DNA from: Capnocytophaga haemolytica
GTDB lineage: Bacteria; Bacteroidota; Bacteroidia; Flavobacteriales; Flavobacteriaceae
DNA: 64,000 bases
Assembly: GCF_001553545.1 (NCBI RefSeq)
Contig: NZ_CP014227.1
Span: 1,093,001-1,157,000, forward strand
Direction of reading: 5' to 3'
In this document: piece after piece, positions 2,855 to 63,061 of the stretch
How the letters are laid out: every line of letters starts with the position of its first letter
Numbering within the stretch: the first letter of the stretch is position 1
Notes under the pieces: generated by a model
What the model was told of the DNA's origin: nothing
Database searches by the model: none
The model's input: only the letters and a program-made list of their open reading frames with translations
Position numbers and translations under genes: made by a program

Positions 2855-2873
2855 TTTAGTGCTATTGAGACGG

Positions 2874-2905
2874 CAAAGGTACAAATAAAAATAGACATAC
2901 ACAAA
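2874..2905 (-). promoter_or_regulatory. Promoter of rsmH-ftsL-ftsI
   Basis: On the minus strand TACCTTTG (2874-2881) is preceded at 20 nt by TTTG (2902-2905), matching the Bacteroidota housekeeping consensus. It lies about 20 bases upstream of the rsmH ATG and so also decides that start. Confidence 0.75.
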
Positions 2906-2989
2906 AAAGAGTTTTGTATAACAGATCAAACGCACGAAATTTATGCCTTATCTCTATCTATTTCTATTTCCTAAGAAAGCACTACAGAT

Positions 2990-3143
2990 CTCGGGTTCAT
3001 CTGCCGTTCACATCGAACTCATTACGGATGCAATACGGACGAACACCGAAGGAACGCCGAAGGATAGTATTACCTCAGTATTACCATAGTATTAGGTTTA
3101 TATTAGGTTTAGTATACAATCATCGAACAACCAACGAATTACA
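2990..3143. repeat. 11-nt periodic repeat array (locus 1)
   Basis: About 14 successive 11-nt units can be laid end to end without a phase break, for example TACGGATGCAA, TACGGACGAAC, ACCGAAGGAAC, GCCGAAGGATA, GTATTACCTCA and GTATTACCATA. The first three units resemble the reverse complement of the later ones. The array is intergenic. Related arrays lie at 29763-29806, 41316-41381 and 57191-57267. Confidence 0.7.
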
Positions 3144-3575
3144 ATTATATGAAAAATAGTCTTTTTACACACTTTGCATAGTCATAACCTCGTACTTTTG
3201 TACGATTGACCTGTTTGTGTAAAAACTGCTACAAGTTTGTAAACTGAGGTAAAACTACTTTTATGATGTGATTTTATTGTATAAGTAGTATTATTTTACT
3301 GTGTAAAAAGTTCTTTAAAATGTAAAAATAGAGTTTTAGGTAGGGTATTTCTTACCCGTTTTTACTATAAAAAGGGGCTATGAAAATGTTAAATTTTACA
3401 TATAAAAAGTTAAAAAATCAGTTAAATATGTGTCATTTTTTCTCTACTGTAAAAGGCTTTTACACTGTGTTTTGTACTTTTATTATATTGATTATTATTG
3501 TTTTATGTTGTATTTAAGAGGTTTGTTTTTACATCTCGGACAAAGTTTTTCATTTTAACATTTGCATTGAAGGCA
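3144..3575. other. Long AT-rich intergenic leader region before the giant adhesin gene
   Basis: No credible ORF is present. TACTTTTG at 3193-3200, with TTTG at 3173-3176 (16 nt), is a possible second plus-strand promoter, and a weak 5-bp hairpin followed by Ts lies at 3343-3362. The motif TGTAAAA recurs at 3163-3169 (reverse), 3218-3224, 3302-3308 and 3321-3327, and forms a perfect 17-bp palindrome, TGTAAAAGGCTTTTACA, at 3448-3464. These may be regulator sites, but the high AT content makes short matches cheap. Confidence 0.4.
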
Positions 3576-3607
3576 TTTGGTAGGTTTGTAGGAAATGTAT
3601 ACTTTTG
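3576..3607 (+). promoter_or_regulatory. Promoter of the giant adhesin gene
   Basis: TTTG (3576-3579), a 20-nt spacer and TACTTTTG (3600-3607) match the Bacteroidota consensus. This predicts a 5' leader of about 50-55 nt before the ATG at 3667. Confidence 0.75.
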
Positions 3608-3666
3608 TGCATTAAAGTATAAAAATACAAAAAAAATACTGTGTTTCAAATATAGCATATAGCCTT

Positions 3667-29599: not shown

Positions 29600-29762
29600 T
29601 TTTTTAACAGAAAAATGTTTTTAAATTAGGGTGAATTGATGTATAATATTGATTGCCAATACAATAAATTTTGAGCTTTTTTATGATTTTTTTAGGATTT
29701 AGTGTTAAGAGGTAGTGTGGCGTTGGAGCAGTTATATATATAAGGTGTGTGGGGGGTAGGGG

Positions 29763-29806
29763 GTGGGTTCGTTATCTATCCGTTGTGTATCCGTTTTTTC
29801 TATAGA
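29763..29806. repeat. 11-nt periodic repeat array (locus 2)
   Basis: Four units: GTGGGTTCGTT, ATCTATCCGTT, GTGTATCCGTT, TTTTCTATAGA. It matches the complement of the TACGGAT-type units at 2990-3143 and 57191-57267. Apart from the gcvH promoter and the TATCTTTG at 29873-29880 before hemH, I see nothing else in 29600-29899. Confidence 0.55.
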
Positions 29807-33786: not shown

Positions 33787-33834
33787 AGGATAATATATAA
33801 TTTATAATGGAGAGCAGTATGAATGATTAGAGTG

Positions 33835-33869
33835 CTAATCACTAATTGCTAACCACGAATCACTAAAAA
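33835..33869. repeat. Heptanucleotide repeat array between typA and ychF
   Basis: Consecutive 7-mers CTAATCA, CTAATTG, CTAACCA, CGAATCA, CTAAAAA, preceded by TGATTAG, which is the reverse complement of the first unit. Its end is 5 bases before the ychF start. Confidence 0.6.
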
Positions 33870-38108: not shown

Positions 38109-38171
38109 TAGCTTTTAGGTGATAGCTTTTAGCCACTACCGCTAAAAGCTAACACCTAAAAGCTAGAAGCT
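38109..38171. repeat. Inverted heptanucleotide array after eno
   Basis: Nine 7-mers in constant phase: TAGCTTT, TAGGTGA, TAGCTTT, TAGCCAC, TACCGCT, AAAAGCT, AACACCT, AAAAGCT, AGAAGCT. The arms 38109-38133 and 38141-38165 are 25-bp near-perfect inverted repeats. It begins 3 bases after the eno stop (reading minus), so it may act as the eno terminator. Confidence 0.75.
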
Positions 38172-38174
38172 AAA

Positions 38175-39479
<1,305 letters not shown>

Positions 39480-39534: not shown

Positions 39535-39562
39535 TGCTAATTGTCAATTGTCAATTGTTAAA
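39535..39562. repeat. Heptanucleotide array at the DinB gene 3' end
   Basis: TGCTAAT, TGTCAAT, TGTCAAT, TGTTAAA. The stop codon and last two codons of the DinB-like gene (39551-39562) are made from these units. Confidence 0.65.
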
Positions 39563-40021
39563 GCTTTCTCTTCCCCAAAAGTAAGGCGGTTCGATACCCA
39601 AAGCGCGGAGGTAAGTGTAACCTTGTCCGCGGTGGTGACTCTCGTTTTCAATGAAGTATAATATCCATTGGACAAAGCTAAAAGTCATTTGATAGATAGT
39701 AAGTGGTTGGGTATAATCACCTACTTTTTGCCATTCACGGTCAAGAATTTCAGTAGCTCTATCCCACAAAGCCAATACTTTTGCTTTGGTAGTAGGAAAG
39801 GCTCCTTCCAAGAAAAGCGTGTGTTGCTCCTGAAATCTTTCTTTAAAAAGATAGTCCATAACTCTCAAAAACTCTTCTACCATTCCTGAAAACGGACGCA
39901 AATTAGCAATACTGAACTCAAAGAGGTCTTTCTCGGGAAAAGTCTCAATCACTTTGCGAGTGAGGGCACGCACATCTTTTAGATTAGTGAGCAGTGCTTC
40001 GGGTGTAAGTAATTCTTTCAT
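39551..40021 (-). CDS. DinB-family putative metal-dependent protein
   Basis: 156 residues, four-helix bundle expected. The C-terminal NESHHRGQGYTYLRALGIEPP motif supplies the conserved His residues of the DinB/YfiT fold, whose members bind a divalent metal and often act on small thiols. The reaction here is unknown. The last residues (NN and stop) are encoded by a heptanucleotide repeat. The gene starts 2 bases after the carA stop, so the two are probably co-transcribed. Confidence 0.82.
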   Translation of the reverse strand: MKELLTPEALLTNLKDVRALTRKVIETFPEKDLFEFSIANLRPFSGMVEEFLRVMDYLFKERFQEQHTLFLEGAFPTTKAKVLALWDRATEILDREWQKVGDYTQPLTIYQMTFSFVQWILYFIENESHHRGQGYTYLRALGIEPPYFWGRESFNN

Positions 40022-43303: not shown

Positions 43304-43394
43304 TTTGGCTTTTAGCTCTTAGCTTTTAGCTTTTAGACAATGATTTATCAAGTTCTAAAAGCTAAAAGCTCGAGGCTGAAAGCTCGATTAAAAA
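43304..43394. repeat. Inverted heptanucleotide array between serC and luxC
   Basis: Thirteen 7-mers in unbroken phase: TTTGGCT, TTTAGCT, CTTAGCT, TTTAGCT, TTTAGAC, then spacer units, then TTCTAAA, AGCTAAA, AGCTCGA, GGCTGAA, AGCTCGA, TTAAAAA. The second half is the reverse complement of the first. It contains the stop codon of the luxC-type gene (43362-43364). Confidence 0.75.
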
Positions 43395-44366
43395 TTCTAT
43401 TGTATCAACCCCGTCGGCATAGTCCCACAGGGCGGGTTGTTGGGTGGTGCCAAAGGGCACTTCGCTATTGCTAAATCCGCTACTTACTACACACTGCAAT
43501 TGCTCAGCATCGGCAGCTAAGCGCGCTTTGAGTTGGTTAATATCGGTGTAGTACTCATAAAAAAGCGTTGCTATGGGCGAACCATAGTGTGTGTCCTCTT
43601 TCAGTATCAAAAATCCATTTTCTAAGAGCTTAAAGAGGCTCATAAGATACACTGCTTTGTTATAGTCGTAATTATTGGCATACTTCTGTTCCTCAATCAA
43701 ATCCTTATAAGGGTAAATTGCCTTAAAGAACAAATCGAAGTTGTAATCCTCGGGTACAAACAGTTTAGAGACACTACGGCAGCCCAAGCCGTAGTACTGA
43801 AAGATATCCCTACCCAAGGCAAAGAGCTGCTGCTGAGTTTCCTCACCAGTGAGCACCGCTACCGAATGGCGGTTCTTGCGGATGATATGTGGCTTATTGC
43901 CAAAGTAGTACTCAAAGTAGCGTGCCGTATTGTTGCTGCCTGTGGCAATCACCGCATCGAAGTTGGCTGTGCGCTCTTCGGTAAACTCAATTCGCGCTCC
44001 TATCTTAGGAGCTATCTCCTTGAGGTAATCGGCAAAGTGTGGCAGCAGCACCTTGTCATCACTTGATAGTTTTACTACTGCTTGGTGCCCTGAGGCGAGC
44101 ACACACAGCAGGTCGTGAAAGCCCACTAAGGGCACATTGCCTGCCATCACAATCAGCACTCGCTTGGGTTTTATTGCTCGCAAATCATATGCCGAGAGCC
44201 ACTGGCTGATGTTCTCCTCAGTAAGCGTCTTAGCCCACGTTTGGCAAGCGTACGTAAGGTTAGCGGGTGTAAACCAGCTGTTCTGCTCGTACGCCCGTGC
44301 AAATAGGTTTTCAAAAGCCGCTGTATTGCCTATATATTGTCCTAACTGTGTAAATATCTCTTTCAT
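43362..44366 (-). CDS. LuxC-type acyl-CoA reductase
   Basis: 334 residues, NAD(P)H-dependent acyl-CoA/acyl reductase family. It has the NVPLVGFHDLLCVLASGH block, ATGSNNTARYFEYYFG, and the catalytic Cys in YYGLGCRSVSKLFVP. The start is ATG 44366 (MKEIFTQLGQ). The ORF continues 35 codons upstream in frame, but those 105 bases are exactly the 15-unit heptanucleotide array and encode a repetitive peptide. The stop codon also lies in a heptanucleotide array. It has no luxD/luxE partners. The physiological substrate is unknown. Confidence 0.85.
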   Translation of the reverse strand: MKEIFTQLGQYIGNTAAFENLFARAYEQNSWFTPANLTYACQTWAKTLTEENISQWLSAYDLRAIKPKRVLIVMAGNVPLVGFHDLLCVLASGHQAVVKLSSDDKVLLPHFADYLKEIAPKIGARIEFTEERTANFDAVIATGSNNTARYFEYYFGNKPHIIRKNRHSVAVLTGEETQQQLFALGRDIFQYYGLGCRSVSKLFVPEDYNFDLFFKAIYPYKDLIEEQKYANNYDYNKAVYLMSLFKLLENGFLILKEDTHYGSPIATLFYEYYTDINQLKARLAADAEQLQCVVSSGFSNSEVPFGTTQQPALWDYADGVDTIEFLIELSASSF

Positions 44367-44367
44367 A

Positions 44368-44472
44368 ATGAGTAATGAGCAATGAGTAGTGAGCAATGAG
44401 TAGTGAGCAATGAGTAGTGAGCAATGAGTAGTGAGCATTTTATTACTCTTTACTCTCTGCCCTTTACTCATT
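44368..44472. repeat. Heptanucleotide array (15 units), luxC-DUF5686 junction
   Basis: Ten units alternating ATGAGTA and ATGAGCA/GTGAGCA, then TTTTATT, ACTCTTT, ACTCTCT, GCCCTTT, ACTCATT, all in one 7-nt phase. The last four are reverse complements of the GAGTAAA/GAGAGTA type. The array fills the space between the luxC ATG and the DUF5686 stop. Confidence 0.9.
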
Positions 44473-47151: not shown

Positions 47152-48039
47152 TGTTTAAACTTTTTTGAGGAACTTGGAGATAAACCCTAATAGGAGCATT
47201 CCAATCCAAGTTACATCAAGATACTCATATCTCATTATCAAACCTTTATATCCGTCAAGCCAACCATTTGCTTGTTCAATCTTAAACCTATTTTTGTACA
47301 ATTCTTCATCAAAATAAACATCTGGTTGCTCTCCATTTCGGGGATTAGGTTTAATATTTGCTATAATTTCTTTGCTTTCTAAAAAATCTCTAAGAGACTT
47401 ACTATCAAATCCTGCATCAGCATTGAGAAACAGTCCTTTGTGTTCTATTCCTGCTTCTTCTAATAAAGCTAAGATTTCTTTTAGTACTTCTTCTATTTCA
47501 TATAAGTCATCGTGATTTCCAGCTTTAGGACTTCCCATTGCTATCATTTGCCCTTTATTATCACACAAAAAAATGCTATTTGTGGTTATGGCTTTTTTTC
47601 TTGCTTGATAACCTGCAGATTCTCCTTTTTGACGACAACGTGTATGACTACCATCCAATTGAACGCAAGACATATCTAACTTTCTTTTCTTCTTACTTAA
47701 TAGATTCAACCATACTCGCTGAAAACTACCATCTTTACTCTATTTATTGAAGTAGTAATAGACATTTTGCCAAGAGATTTCTCCTTTTTCAAAATAGTTC
47801 TCAATTGGAAGTTCTCTCCATTGTACCCCTGTTTTTAACCTCTTGAGAATCAATAAAAATATTGAAGCCAAATCAAAATTACTTTTAAATCCTCTTTTTC
47901 CTACACTTAAAAAGGGAATAATCCAATTATTTATTGTATCTTTGCCCAAAGTTCCTGAATTTTGGTGTTCTTTTTTTTGCAAACACAAAATTACTAATTT
48001 TCGGGAACTTTTATTTTATTATAAGAAAAAGTTTAAACA
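47152..48039 (-). mobile_element. IS5-family insertion sequence (888 bp)
   Basis: Perfect 14-bp terminal inverted repeats, TGTTTAAACTTTTT (47152-47165) and its complement (48026-48039), enclose one transposase gene whose stop codon lies inside the left repeat. No convincing target-site duplication is seen next to the repeats, so the exact ends may be a few bases off. It sits between DUF5686 and htrA and interrupts no recognisable gene. Confidence 0.85.
47155..47988 (-). pseudogene. IS5-family transposase with an internal amber codon
   Basis: The N-terminal part (DUF4096-like: LKTGVQWRELP, then WQNVYYYFNK) runs to a TAG at 47740-47742. The frame then continues without shift (SKDGSFQRVW, then LNLLSKKKRK) into the DDE domain: Asp in LDGSHTRC, Asp in NADAGFDS, and Glu in IEQANGWLDGYKG. 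The TAG replaces a codon that is Trp (TGG) in related transposases, so one point mutation inactivates an otherwise complete gene of about 277 codons. The start is uncertain; the upstream end has only a TTG at 47986-47988. Confidence 0.85.
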
Positions 48040-48077
48040 GCTTTAAAGTGATAAATATTTCTTGGATTTTAGCAAAA

Positions 48078-48092
48078 TGGCACAATTGTTGC
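48078..48092 (+). promoter_or_regulatory. Sigma-54 (RpoN) promoter of htrA
   Basis: TGGCAC-N5-TTGC (TGGCACAATTGTTGC) matches the -24/-12 consensus exactly in sequence and spacing. The predicted start point, about 48104, gives a leader of about 32 nt before the ATG at 48136. No good sigma-A type promoter is seen; the nearest, TACTTTTC, lacks the final G and has no -33 element. The IS right end lies 38 bases upstream. Confidence 0.75.
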
Positions 48093-48135
48093 CTATCTAC
48101 TTTTCGAGTAAAAACATTTAAAACAGAGAATTTAT

Positions 48136-53796: not shown

Positions 53797-53821
53797 AAAT
53801 TAATCATTGATCATTGAAGAA
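53797..53821. repeat. Short heptanucleotide run
   Basis: TCATTGA occurs twice in tandem (53804-53817) with degenerate flanks. This is a weak member of the 7-nt family. The rest of 53650-53881 shows only AT-rich DNA. Confidence 0.35.
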
Positions 53822-58709: not shown

Positions 58710-58758
58710 ACACTAAGCATTAAACACTAATTATTTAACCATTAGTCATTGCACTAAA
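58710..58758. repeat. Heptanucleotide array between M64 and GT9 genes
   Basis: ACACTAA, GCATTAA, ACACTAA, TTATTTA, ACCATTA, GTCATTG, CACTAAA in constant 7-nt phase. Confidence 0.6.
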
Positions 58759-60280: not shown

Positions 60281-63061
60281 ATGAAGAAATACCTTATCCG
60301 CACCCTTAAAATCACAGGGATTGTGCTCGGTGCGCTCTTGGCGTTCCTCATCATCTTTCCGATGGTGTACCCTGAGTACGTTACTGAGAAAATCAAGAAA
60401 TTAGCGAACGACAATCTCAACGGCGAGATTAACTTCTCGCGGGCAAAGCTCAGTTTCTTTAGTCATTTCCCTGCGCTGACGCTCAATTTAGAGAATTTTC
60501 TGCTGAAAGGCTCAGAGCCTTTTACGCAGGATACCTTAGTGAGCGTAAAGCGCATTGACTTGGGTATTGATGTGCCTTCATTGATTTTCTCCAAGAAGAT
60601 TGATATAGAGGCTATTTATCTGAAAGAACCGTTCATCAATATTCAGGTGAACAAGCAGGGTAGGGCGAGCTACAACGTTTATAAATCCAGCGGTGAGGAG
60701 ACGGAGAACGCAGAGAGTGATGATACGCGGCTGAAACTCCAACGTATTGATATAAAGAATGCAAAGCTCATTTACGACGATAAGTCCACCGACATATACA
60801 TCAAGGCTACGGGCTTTAACTACTTAGGCAAAGGCGACTTGGCGGAGTCGATTTTCGATCTGAAAACCAAGGCAGACATCGCCTCGCTCGACTTTCTCTT
60901 CGGGGGAGAGGCGTACCTAAAGAATAAGCACGTAAAGGCGGAGCTCATCACACAGATCAACACCAATTCGTTGGCCTTTATCTTTCAGCAGAACGACCTG
61001 CTCATCAATCGCTTGCCTGTGGACTTCAAAGGAAAGCTCGACTTCCTCAGCAATGGCTACGATATGGATTTTACCATCAATGCAAAGGATTGTGCCTTAG
61101 ACGATGTCTTTACCGCTTTGCCGCCGCAGTTTACGCAATGGCATAAGAAAGCCACCCTGACGGGGCGCACGGATCTGTACTTTGCTATGAAGGGTCAGTA
61201 TATCGCTTCACAGAGTTTGAGTCCTGATATAGAGTTGAAAATGCGCGTGCGCGATGCCTCAGTGGCATACGAGGGCGTACCCGCCAAGGCTGAACATATA
61301 CAGCTAAACCTCTCGACGCGCTTGCCTTCATTAGATGTCAACAAGCTACAAGTAACCCTTGACTCGCTCTATTTTGACATAGGGAAGGAGTATTTTTCGG
61401 GTAAATTGCAGCTCGATGGTTTGCAGCCCCCTGTTATTGCTGCCAAAGTGCGTGCAAAGGTAGACCTTGCCAAGGTGATGCAGCTCACGGGTCAGAATGA
61501 TTACCAGCTACGGGGTATGCTGCTAGCGAACCTCACTGCTAAGGGGCGTTACGAGCCTGAGCAGCGACTTTTCCCCGTTACCAAAGGGACACTCCACTTC
61601 ACTGAGGGGCACGTGAAGACCCCTTACTACCCCCATCCGATTACCAACATAGCCTTTAAGGGGGATATCTCCAATAGTGATGGTACGATGAAGAGTCTTG
61701 CGGTACATCTCACTCCTGCGACTTTTACCTTTGAGGGAGAACCATTTACGCTCAATGCCTCCTTGGAGAATTTTGACGATATTCGCTATGATATCGATGC
61801 CAAAGGGGTACTCAATATTGCGAAGATATACCACGTATTTCACCAGAAAGGGTTGGACTTGGAGGGGTATGCTCGAGCAGATCTCAGCTTAAAAGGCACC
61901 CAGAGCGATGCTACAGCAGGGCGATACCACCTATTGCAAAACAAGGGCGTAGTGGAGTTGCGCAACATCAAGACCACTACGGAGTACCTACCCTTGCCCT
62001 TTGTAATACAGCAAGGCGTTTTCCGTTTTCATCAGGACGATATGCACTTTACGAACTTTCGGGCTACTTATGGTCAGTCGGACTTTGTGATGAACGGGCG
62101 TATGCAGAATGCTATCAACTTTGCTTTGACAAAGGGGCAGGTGCTACGAGGCACCTTCTCGCTGAGTTCGCAGCATATCAATGTAGATGAGTTTATGGCA
62201 CAGGAGACAGAGAGTAGAGAGCAAAGAGTAGAGAGTGGAGAGCAGAGAGAAGTGAATAAAGAGCAAAGCTCAAAAGGAGTGGTTATAGTGCCCAAGGACT
62301 TTGATTTTAATCTCAATGCGAATTTGAAGAATGTGTTCTTTCATGGGCTGACGGTTCACAATCTGCGGGGCAATACGCGGCTGCGCAAGGGGGTGCTCGC
62401 GCTGAATAACGTAGGCTTTAACATCATCGGTGTGTCGGCACACATCAATGCCTCTTATGGTGATGAAACCCCTGAGCGTGCCCACTTTGCCTTTAAGGTA
62501 GATGCAGAGAACTTTGATGTGCAGCGCGCTTATAAGGAAGTAAAACTCTTCCGCGAGATGGTAACGATGGCAAAGGATGCTTATGGGATTATCTCTGTTA
62601 AATACAACCTCAAAGGCAAGCTCGATGGAGAGATGACGCCTATCTACCCTTCCTTAGAAGGCGGAGGAACGCTCTCAGTGAAAGATGTGAAGCTCAAAGG
62701 ATTTAAGCTCTTCAACATCATCAGTCAGAAGGCAGGAACCGACGCACTAAAAGATGCCAACCTCACTACGATTGACATCAACAGCACGATTAAGAACAAT
62801 CTGATCACCATTGAGCGATTCAAGTTTAAGGTCTCAGGCTTTCGTCCGCGTATAGAGGGGCAAACGAGTTTTGACGGAGCACTCAACCTAAAGATGCGTT
62901 TAGGGCTGCCACCGTTAGGTATTATCGGCATTCCTATCAAAGTAACAGGCACCACCGAGCATCCTAAGATAGGCTTAGGCAGGAAGAGCAAGGACTTAGA
63001 GGAGACGGAGTATGACTCACGGACAGGAAACGAAGGAGAAACGGACAAATCTACCAAATAA
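60281..63061 (+). CDS. AsmA-like (AsmA/YhdP/TamB-type) envelope protein with an in-frame repeat insertion
   Basis: 926 residues. One N-terminal membrane helix (about 8-30) is followed by the AsmA N-terminal signature (NGEINFSRAKLSFFSHFPALTL and DLGIDVPS) and a long periplasmic beta-groove region ending with an AsmA_2-like domain (GGGTLSVKDVKLKGF...). Such proteins are thought to carry phospholipids between membranes. Residues about 641-665 (ETESREQ, RVESGEQ, REVNKEQ, then SSKG) are coded by a heptanucleotide array (62204-62273) matching the intergenic family. It follows aroQ with no gap. Confidence 0.88.
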   Translation: MKKYLIRTLKITGIVLGALLAFLIIFPMVYPEYVTEKIKKLANDNLNGEINFSRAKLSFFSHFPALTLNLENFLLKGSEPFTQDTLVSVKRIDLGIDVPSLIFSKKIDIEAIYLKEPFINIQVNKQGRASYNVYKSSGEETENAESDDTRLKLQRIDIKNAKLIYDDKSTDIYIKATGFNYLGKGDLAESIFDLKTKADIASLDFLFGGEAYLKNKHVKAELITQINTNSLAFIFQQNDLLINRLPVDFKGKLDFLSNGYDMDFTINAKDCALDDVFTALPPQFTQWHKKATLTGRTDLYFAMKGQYIASQSLSPDIELKMRVRDASVAYEGVPAKAEHIQLNLSTRLPSLDVNKLQVTLDSLYFDIGKEYFSGKLQLDGLQPPVIAAKVRAKVDLAKVMQLTGQNDYQLRGMLLANLTAKGRYEPEQRLFPVTKGTLHFTEGHVKTPYYPHPITNIAFKGDISNSDGTMKSLAVHLTPATFTFEGEPFTLNASLENFDDIRYDIDAKGVLNIAKIYHVFHQKGLDLEGYARADLSLKGTQSDATAGRYHLLQNKGVVELRNIKTTTEYLPLPFVIQQGVFRFHQDDMHFTNFRATYGQSDFVMNGRMQNAINFALTKGQVLRGTFSLSSQHINVDEFMAQETESREQRVESGEQREVNKEQSSKGVVIVPKDFDFNLNANLKNVFFHGLTVHNLRGNTRLRKGVLALNNVGFNIIGVSAHINASYGDETPERAHFAFKVDAENFDVQRAYKEVKLFREMVTMAKDAYGIISVKYNLKGKLDGEMTPIYPSLEGGGTLSVKDVKLKGFKLFNIISQKAGTDALKDANLTTIDINSTIKNNLITIERFKFKVSGFRPRIEGQTSFDGALNLKMRLGLPPLGIIGIPIKVTGTTEHPKIGLGRKSKDLEETEYDSRTGNEGETDKSTK
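62204..62273 (+). repeat. Heptanucleotide array inside the AsmA-like gene
   Basis: Ten units: GAGACAG, AGAGTAG, AGAGCAA, AGAGTAG, AGAGTGG, AGAGCAG, AGAGAAG, TGAATAA, AGAGCAA, AGCTCAA. The same unit type occurs, reverse-complemented, at 44445-44472. Because 3 x 7 = 21, it codes a heptapeptide-periodic charged segment without breaking the frame. Confidence 0.85.

Follow-up and report, generated by a model that had tools for sequence, protein, structure and literature searches.

What fills the spaces between genes with repeats of one fixed unit length and ever-changing sequence? The question is raised by positions 44368-44472 of the window, a 64-kb stretch of the one-contig, 2.69-Mb genome of Capnocytophaga haemolytica. 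A first-pass annotation, made from the letters of the window, had listed this array with seven other segments as a family of intergenic arrays that use different heptamers, keep a strict 7-nt period and often turn in phase into their own reverse complement.

Unit lengths of 7 and 11 nt between genes

The C. haemolytica sample (G000) comprised the window and 20 further 20-kb stretches (21 stretches, 17% of the genome), in one of which (L020, G000:C1:1206001-1226000) 2500 bases are masked. Genes, and hence gaps, were defined by a custom codon-model gene finder, giving 266 gaps of at least 30 nt, which amount to 65 kb in the count of lag runs and to 63 kb once gaps with masked bases are excluded. 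Unit lengths of 4-13 nt were scored, with each array given to its smallest period. The gaps (63 kb) contained 57 arrays with a period of 7 nt and 28 with a period of 11 nt, and the numbers for periods 4, 5, 6, 8, 9, 10, 12 and 13 were 1, 0, 0, 2, 0, 0, 0 and 0, respectively. Shuffled gaps gave at most 0.4 arrays at any period, including 0.4 at period 7 against the 57 real ones. Exact 7-base runs numbered 297 at lag 7 and 271 at lag 11, against 12 on average in the shuffles for either lag, and the two peaks were equally sharp. The multiples 14, 21, 28, 22 and 33 followed this excess, and minor excesses appeared at lag 8 (31 vs 12) and lag 18 (37 vs 12). Single-base autocorrelation in the gaps gave z values of 19.4, 13.8, 7.0, 20.3 and 12.8 at lags 2, 3, 4, 7 and 11, respectively. 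Runs at lag 7 occurred at 47.1 per 10 kb of gaps against 1.7 in coding DNA, those at lag 11 at 42.8 against 0.7, and 8 period-7 arrays were found inside 390 kb of coding DNA. These data indicate that the 7-nt arrays are real and genome-wide in the gaps, with a unit length that is fixed whatever the heptamer. The claims that one period is kept by different heptamers, that intergenic DNA is enriched in lag-7 autocorrelation and that arrays extend beyond the window, here over the 21 stretches, were all borne out, and the peak at lag 11 had gone unremarked.

Within the window, lag-7 scores were set against 20 dinucleotide shuffles (Table 1). Five of the eight segments in the first-pass list exceeded chance, one was borderline and two were at chance level; no shuffle matched the scores of 38109-38171, 39535-39562, 43304-43394, 44368-44472 or 62204-62273. 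The two segments at chance level are what would be expected if AT-rich gaps simply yielded apparent repeats by virtue of their composition, but the dinucleotide shuffles refute this explanation at the level of the genome, and low-GC congeners, which are richer in AT, have fewer arrays, leaving it a negligible probability. The description of the arrays as intergenic held for most of the list; 62204-62273 lies in an open reading frame of 926 aa, and 39535-39562 and 43304-43394 enter the 3' ends of genes. The latter array encodes the final residues (C-terminus IELSASSF) and the stop of a 335-aa protein, whose nearest named relatives are from Capnocytophaga species (65-68% identity). The array at 44368-44472 scored best at lag 14, reflecting alternating heptads, and forms a hairpin at 44369-44470 (RNA fold z -4.1); a search of plasmid records with this array gave no match.

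Table 1. Repeat arrays in the 64-kb window of Capnocytophaga haemolytica.
Position	Strand	Array	Score or context
3020..3111	.	11-nt-period arrays AACGCCGAAGG, AGTATTACCAT/AGTATTAGGTT	TRF; divergent gap 2855-3666
29677..29700	.	Weak 11-nt-period array TTTTTTAGGAT	Score 10.8
29770..29795	.	Weak 11-nt-period array CGTTATCTATC	Score 10.6
33790..33808	.	Weak 7-nt array ATAATAT	Lag-7 score 9.8
33835..33869	.	Listed array CTAATCA, weak	Lag-7 score 7.4, 4.5 expected; lag-14 score 11.2
38109..38171	.	TAGCTTT / AGCTAAA hairpin array	25-nt arms, loop 7; RNA fold z -6.9; most of an 82-nt gap, both flanking genes minus-strand
39535..39562	.	TGTCAAT array	Lag-7 score 13.8; TRF 39539-39558, score 40; over 3' end of gene 39551-40021
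43304..43394	.	TTTAGCT ... AGCTAAA hairpin array	Fold z -5.5; right part within 3' end of 335-aa gene 43362-44366
44367..44470 (listed 44368-44472)	.	(AATGAGT/AGTGAGC)n array with inverted ACTCTTT arm	Lag-7 score 30, lag-14 score 54.8; entire gap, minus-strand gene on each side
53797..53821	.	Short ATTGATC array, borderline	0.5 expected per 64 kb
58710..58758	.	Listed ACACTAA segment	Chance level for lag 7 (11.3 expected); better score at lag 14
62204..62273	+	AGAGTAG-type 7/21-nt array	Lag-7 score 21.6; TRF period 21, score 79; within coding gene 60281-63061

The position of the arrays relative to genes bears on whether they might serve as ladders of sites at which DNA- or RNA-binding proteins attach or translation begins, an idea put forward for the TAACTGA repeats of Beggiatoaceae. 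Where the flanking genes are codirectional, arrays frequently abut a start or stop codon, and of the 67 in such gaps 16 have an end no more than 7 nt from the following start codon, as such ladders might; in several gaps, ATTATAC-type arrays stand directly upstream of promoter boxes of the Bacteroidota type. However, the density of 7-nt arrays is the same whether gaps are codirectional (1.72 per kb), divergent (1.63) or convergent (1.77), and the heptamers vary between gaps and, at one gap, between species, which makes binding ladders a very improbable general explanation. The heptads in question directly precede TAnnTTTG boxes at L011:9320-9400, L017:1990-2070, L021:1750-1830 and L023:18380-18463, and several of the ATTATAC-type arrays contain the -33-like TTG; box and TTG are what we take to be the Bacteroidota-type promoter motif.

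A stop codon was present in at least 60% of the units on one strand in 95 of 107 arrays, compared with 70% when random heptamers from gaps were tandemly repeated without error and 47% for segments drawn at random from gaps. Since 7 leaves a remainder of 1 on division by 3, a stop-bearing unit puts stops in all three frames; this may make arrays easier to tolerate at gene ends, but does not select the length of 7. A role as a stop-codon ladder was discarded, as the arrays exceed the 70% by only a modest margin and are not independent of one another.

Gain and loss of whole units between species

Proteins were used solely to locate orthologous places in the genomes compared. Two genes identified G013/G017, G013/G014 and G003/G009 as the closest pairs of congeners. 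G013 and G014, which have long stretches in common, were compared over 360 kb and 440 kb, respectively, and 140 of their 144 orthologous gaps were kept, pairs below 80% identity or above 1500 nt being dropped. Among indels that copy their neighbourhood, defined as those of at least 4 nt with at least 80% match to adjacent sequence, 14 of 19 were multiples of 7 (ten of 7 nt, three of 14 nt and one of 21 nt); the other five measured 4 nt (two), 6, 9 and 20 nt, and none 5, 8 or 10-13 nt. Taken over all indels the peak was not clean, with 19, 18 and 7 indels of 6, 7 and 8 nt and 5, 9 and 2 of 13, 14 and 15 nt, and only 3 of 41 indels of 16-500 nt were multiples of 7. In one gap of this pair, the length difference is exactly 77 nt and consists of ACCATTA/ATCATTA units that adjoin two more of the kind (unpolarised). 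A single unit also separates C. haemolytica from G017 upstream of the 430-aa gene 38175-39467, where the gap measures 83 and 90 nt, respectively, and the difference is one AATTGAC unit plus a few substitutions.

Five of 19 congeners retain the gene pair that flanks 44367-44470. Its gap holds an array of ATGAGTA in C. haemolytica (104 nt), of AATTATG in G002 (58 nt) and of GTAAAAG in G017 (103 nt), and holds none in G013 (26 nt), G014 (13 nt) and G007 (13 nt); the 77-nt difference between G013 and G017 includes a mid-portion of about 30 nt that is not made of heptads. C. haemolytica was further compared with five congeners at 28 distinct gaps (45 comparisons; gene pairs that are non-adjacent in either species were dropped, and G002 and G007 gave none). 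Neither side had an array in 35 comparisons, both sides in two (one gap), C. haemolytica only in two (one gap) and the relative only in six (four gaps). The median gap on the array side and the other side was 126 vs 16 nt for C. haemolytica-only arrays (two comparisons, one gap) and 73 vs 22.5 nt for relative-only arrays (six comparisons, four gaps). At gap L011:11942-12043, both species carry arrays, of different heptamers. Judged from these alignments, 7-nt units are evidently gained or lost whole between species, and at a given gap the unit length apparently outlasts the unit sequence. Since related species do not share the heptamer of a given gap, its sequence is not under strong common selection.

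Aligning orthologous gaps for gain and loss of units had been suggested as a check, and between species it thus yielded steps of 7 nt. Of the roles considered in the first-pass annotation, the product of a repeat-making process fits best with this stepwise turnover. We therefore favour, with a probability of roughly 65%, a reading in which each array is a tandem repeat of local origin that lengthens, shortens and alters in steps of complete 7-nt units. During replication or repair, strand slippage with a preferred step of 7 nt would extend a short seed already present in the gap; the growing array could then form a hairpin, and template switching would copy one arm into the other to give inverted arms. 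Arrays would be retained at sites where the harm is slight, namely gaps and gene ends, aided by the all-frame stops, and any function would be incidental. The assertion that ordinary slippage cannot make such arrays was too strong, since the unit-step indels resemble slippage with a preferred step. The unit-copying indels fall for the most part in arrays with pre-existing 7-nt units; they thus show turnover rather than birth, and they are unpolarised. The preference for 7 is a peak and not an absolute rule, given the 8-nt arrays in G013, G014 and G017 and the 9-nt arrays in G013 and G014.

Inverted arms, dispersed sequences and the 11-nt class

Stems scoring at least 14 were found near 21 of 66 arrays, compared with 4 of 66 matched array-free regions and a mean of 0 of 66 over five flank shuffles, although part of them adjoin the array instead of lying within it. 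Thus, inverted arms exceed chance, as had been proposed. In the C. haemolytica sample, 28 hairpins overlapped an array, in every gene orientation. Three arrays, not specified, had been said to turn into their reverse complement without losing phase. The arrays at 38109, 43304 and 44368 fold as hairpins, but phase is not kept as a general rule: loop lengths modulo 7 spread over 0 (8 hairpins), 1 (3), 2 (5), 3 (3), 4 (3), 5 (5) and 6 (1), which rules out a general phase lock, and by position five of the eight loops with remainder 0 represent a single shared loop.

Strong RNA folds (z -4.1 to -9.4) were obtained for five of the six arrays folded, and in one gap of G001, G012 and G004 a GGTCAG-type hairpin is followed by T residues, features that would suit intrinsic transcription terminators whose stems have grown by duplication. 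Yet the sixth example (z -0.4) folds no better than shuffles, and the hairpins show no excess at gene ends, with 17 in codirectional, 7 in divergent and 4 in convergent gaps among 184, 48 and 34 available. Over the 10 nt that follow the stem the T fraction is 0.39 (0.335 in gaps), and ahead of the stem the A fraction is 0.41 (0.33 in gaps), both only slight shifts. Termination, one of the roles put forward earlier, is therefore very unlikely to be the common one, as 7 of 28 hairpins lie between divergent genes and there is little T tail. An Rfam scan of five sources (144 kb, gathering threshold) returned only two tRNAs.

The shared loop, TCGGCGCGTTAGCAATTTACTC (22 nt), occurs at 11 places in C. 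haemolytica with at most 3 mismatches, most of them with heptad arms that vary by place (for example, L010:14851-14926), and the reversed control gave 0; it was absent from the 19 congeners. One loop at 11 places of this genome and in none of the congeners indicates that some hairpins have spread by copying. Moreover, 123 of the 266 gaps were linked by BLAST. These sequences common to distant loci indicate that dispersal also acts. The arrays might accordingly belong to small hairpin elements of a REP- or MITE-like type, dispersed by movement or copying between gaps, as their arms, which 7-nt steps would then have blurred, a reading with which the enlargement of gaps by arrays also agrees. However, the loop is confined to 1 of 20 Capnocytophaga genomes, other hairpins differ in loop length, the unit-step differences occur in place, and no match to the Y1 (RAYT-type) transposase family PF01797 was found in the genome, so we regard dispersed elements as an unlikely source of the arrays at large. 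REP and REPIN hairpins are short palindromes spread through gaps. The C. haemolytica hairpins resemble them as short palindromes across gaps; they differ in that no RAYT-type gene was found in this genome and that the arms are tandem heptads and not conserved. One loop recurs at 11 sites, between variable arms. REP elements proper were set aside on the PF01797 search (0 matches in the genome; the control was found in 5 of 14 genomes).

Two further repeated sequences were observed. A short repeat around CTCACAGCTGGGTATGTG, which sits between heptad arms at some places, has six matches in G013 (joined L233-L241 and L253-L261), G014 (L242-L252) and G017 (L178, L197). A dispersed intergenic sequence, roughly 320-420 nt long and with 96-97% identity among its three copies, lies at 47548-48135 of the window, L024:17624-18160 and L016:8173-8619.

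The 11-nt arrays are a second, separate class, located upstream of genes and partly inside dispersed elements. They favour longer gaps (24 of the 73 gaps of 250-600 nt contain one), and they are densest in divergent gaps (1.18 per kb), ahead of codirectional (0.51) and convergent ones (0.16). Comparison of C. haemolytica gaps placed many of them within dispersed sequences: two gaps that are 75% alike over 293 nt show one alignment gap of exactly 11 nt, and in a second pair the alignment gaps inside the array total 22. An element of about 215 bp holds a core of four 11-nt units, TCGTCCAAGAT TCGTATAAGCT TCCTATAAGCT CTCTATAAGCT; its match lengths are mostly 196-217 nt, with three others of 170, 274 and 323 nt. 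The sequence GTTTTTAACAT was considered as a possible element end. The 28-nt core pattern (at most 3 mismatches) gave at least 138 matches in G017, including a few that overlap at one place, 3 in C. haemolytica and none in the 18 other congeners, the reversed control giving 0; a 160-kb sample of G017 contained 8 places with the exact 17-nt core. In an alignment of twelve hits from eleven places, the core is near-invariant and the sides differ. Sites of this non-coding element include L122:5228-5755 in G017 and G000:C1:738401, 2464531 and 2475477. A link between 11-nt arrays and promoters was also considered and not retained: a promoter-like box was present in 23 of 46 array-gene combinations, with all 23 arrays upstream of it, but this order is partly forced because promoters hug start codons.

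Distribution in the genus and relation to described repeats

The same threshold was applied to a set of 76 other loci, retrieved with one protein and mainly from Flavobacteriia according to their record titles, with gaps totalling 146 kb. It gave 23 arrays at 7 nt (in 16 of the 76 loci), 7 at 8 nt and none at 11 nt, and a looser threshold added five weak 11-nt arrays, with 64 lag-11 runs against 39 in shuffles. In G017, 19 arrays were found at 7 nt, 15 at 11 nt and 7 at 8 nt. G013 and G014 had 33 and 42 arrays at 7 nt, 15 and 8 at 8 nt, 7 and 5 at 9 nt, and 2 each at 11 nt. From samples of less than 7 kb of gaps each, G012 gave 12 arrays at 7 nt and none at 11 nt, and G011 gave 2 at 7 nt and 8 at 11 nt; G002 and G007, also smaller samples, showed an excess at lag 11. 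Six low-GC Capnocytophaga species pooled (36 kb of gaps) had 2 arrays at 7 nt and none at 11 nt, as had five pooled genomes from other families of the order (16 kb of gaps), and a piece of Escherichia coli K-12 with 4 kb of gaps had no arrays. Among lengths 5-11, 7 is the commonest unit in C. haemolytica, G012, G013, G014, G017 and the 76 loci, though not in G011. The 7- and 11-nt periods seem to vary independently between species, with the G011 and G012 samples below 7 kb each.

The 7-nt arrays belong by definition to the heptanucleotide long simple sequence repeats of Mrazek et al. (2007), as that definition is relayed in PMC4679880 and PMC4692102. According to these two accounts, units of 7 nt are the commonest in the class, the size preference is unexplained, and the contact length of the polymerase has been suggested as its cause. 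The C. haemolytica arrays agree with the class, as so described, in the predominance of tandem 7-nt units, in their varied heptamers and in their excess over chance (57 vs 0.4), and depart from it in being short and degenerate, often with inverted arms, in the second, equally sharp peak at 11 nt and in the unit steps between species.

Three more specific groups are described in the same sources. The TAACTGA direct repeats (MacGregor 2015, PMC4679880) are intergenic heptamer arrays, some abutting start codons, in organisms that include five Bacteroidetes, and 7-nt indels between two Cyanothece strains are reported there as well. Our arrays are likewise intergenic, sometimes at start codons, and differ by 7-nt indels between relatives; unlike the sequence-specific TAACTGA repeats, they include no match to two TAACTGA units at up to 1 mismatch in C. 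haemolytica, so identity with those repeats was rejected. The earlier statement that no such system is described in Bacteroidota does not hold, as TAACTGA and other heptamer arrays in Bacteroidetes appear in PMC4679880. The GGGNATC repeats of Xanthomonas and Nostoc (Rehm 2015, as given in PMC4692102) are heptads between genes whose length varies among relatives, with inverted examples, all of which is also seen here; they consist of one G-rich, quadruplex-capable motif, whereas the arrays of C. haemolytica have many motifs, mostly not G-rich. The heptanucleotide arrays of the cyanobacterium Calothrix, mentioned in PMC4692102, are alike in unit length, seven nucleotides, by that description alone. 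What is added here is the double peak at 7 and 11 nt, its apparent separability between species, the 7-nt turnover between Bacteroidota species and a unit length that outlives the unit sequence. For 11-nt arrays, or the combined 7 and 11 pattern of Capnocytophaga, no description appeared among the papers listed by the literature searches, which cover few subscription papers.

A broader proposal, which we consider speculative and rather unlikely as a whole, is that some Flavobacteriia have an active repeat-making process that measures length and not sequence. In part of Capnocytophaga it would favour two units, 7 and 11 nt, with almost nothing between; their separability by species (7 without 11 in G012 and mainly 11 in G011, from samples of less than 7 kb of gaps) would point to a pair of separate enzymes, or to one polymerase in two states, one of the two being restricted to a part of the genus.

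The predominance of heptamers among long bacterial repeats has been a standing question since 2007. Capnocytophaga sets array-rich beside array-poor species, unit gain and loss can be counted between close relatives, and the 11-nt unit occurs in only some species. The cause of the preferred length thereby becomes testable, by comparing repair and replication genes across the genus and by mutation accumulation in a host that is cultivable.
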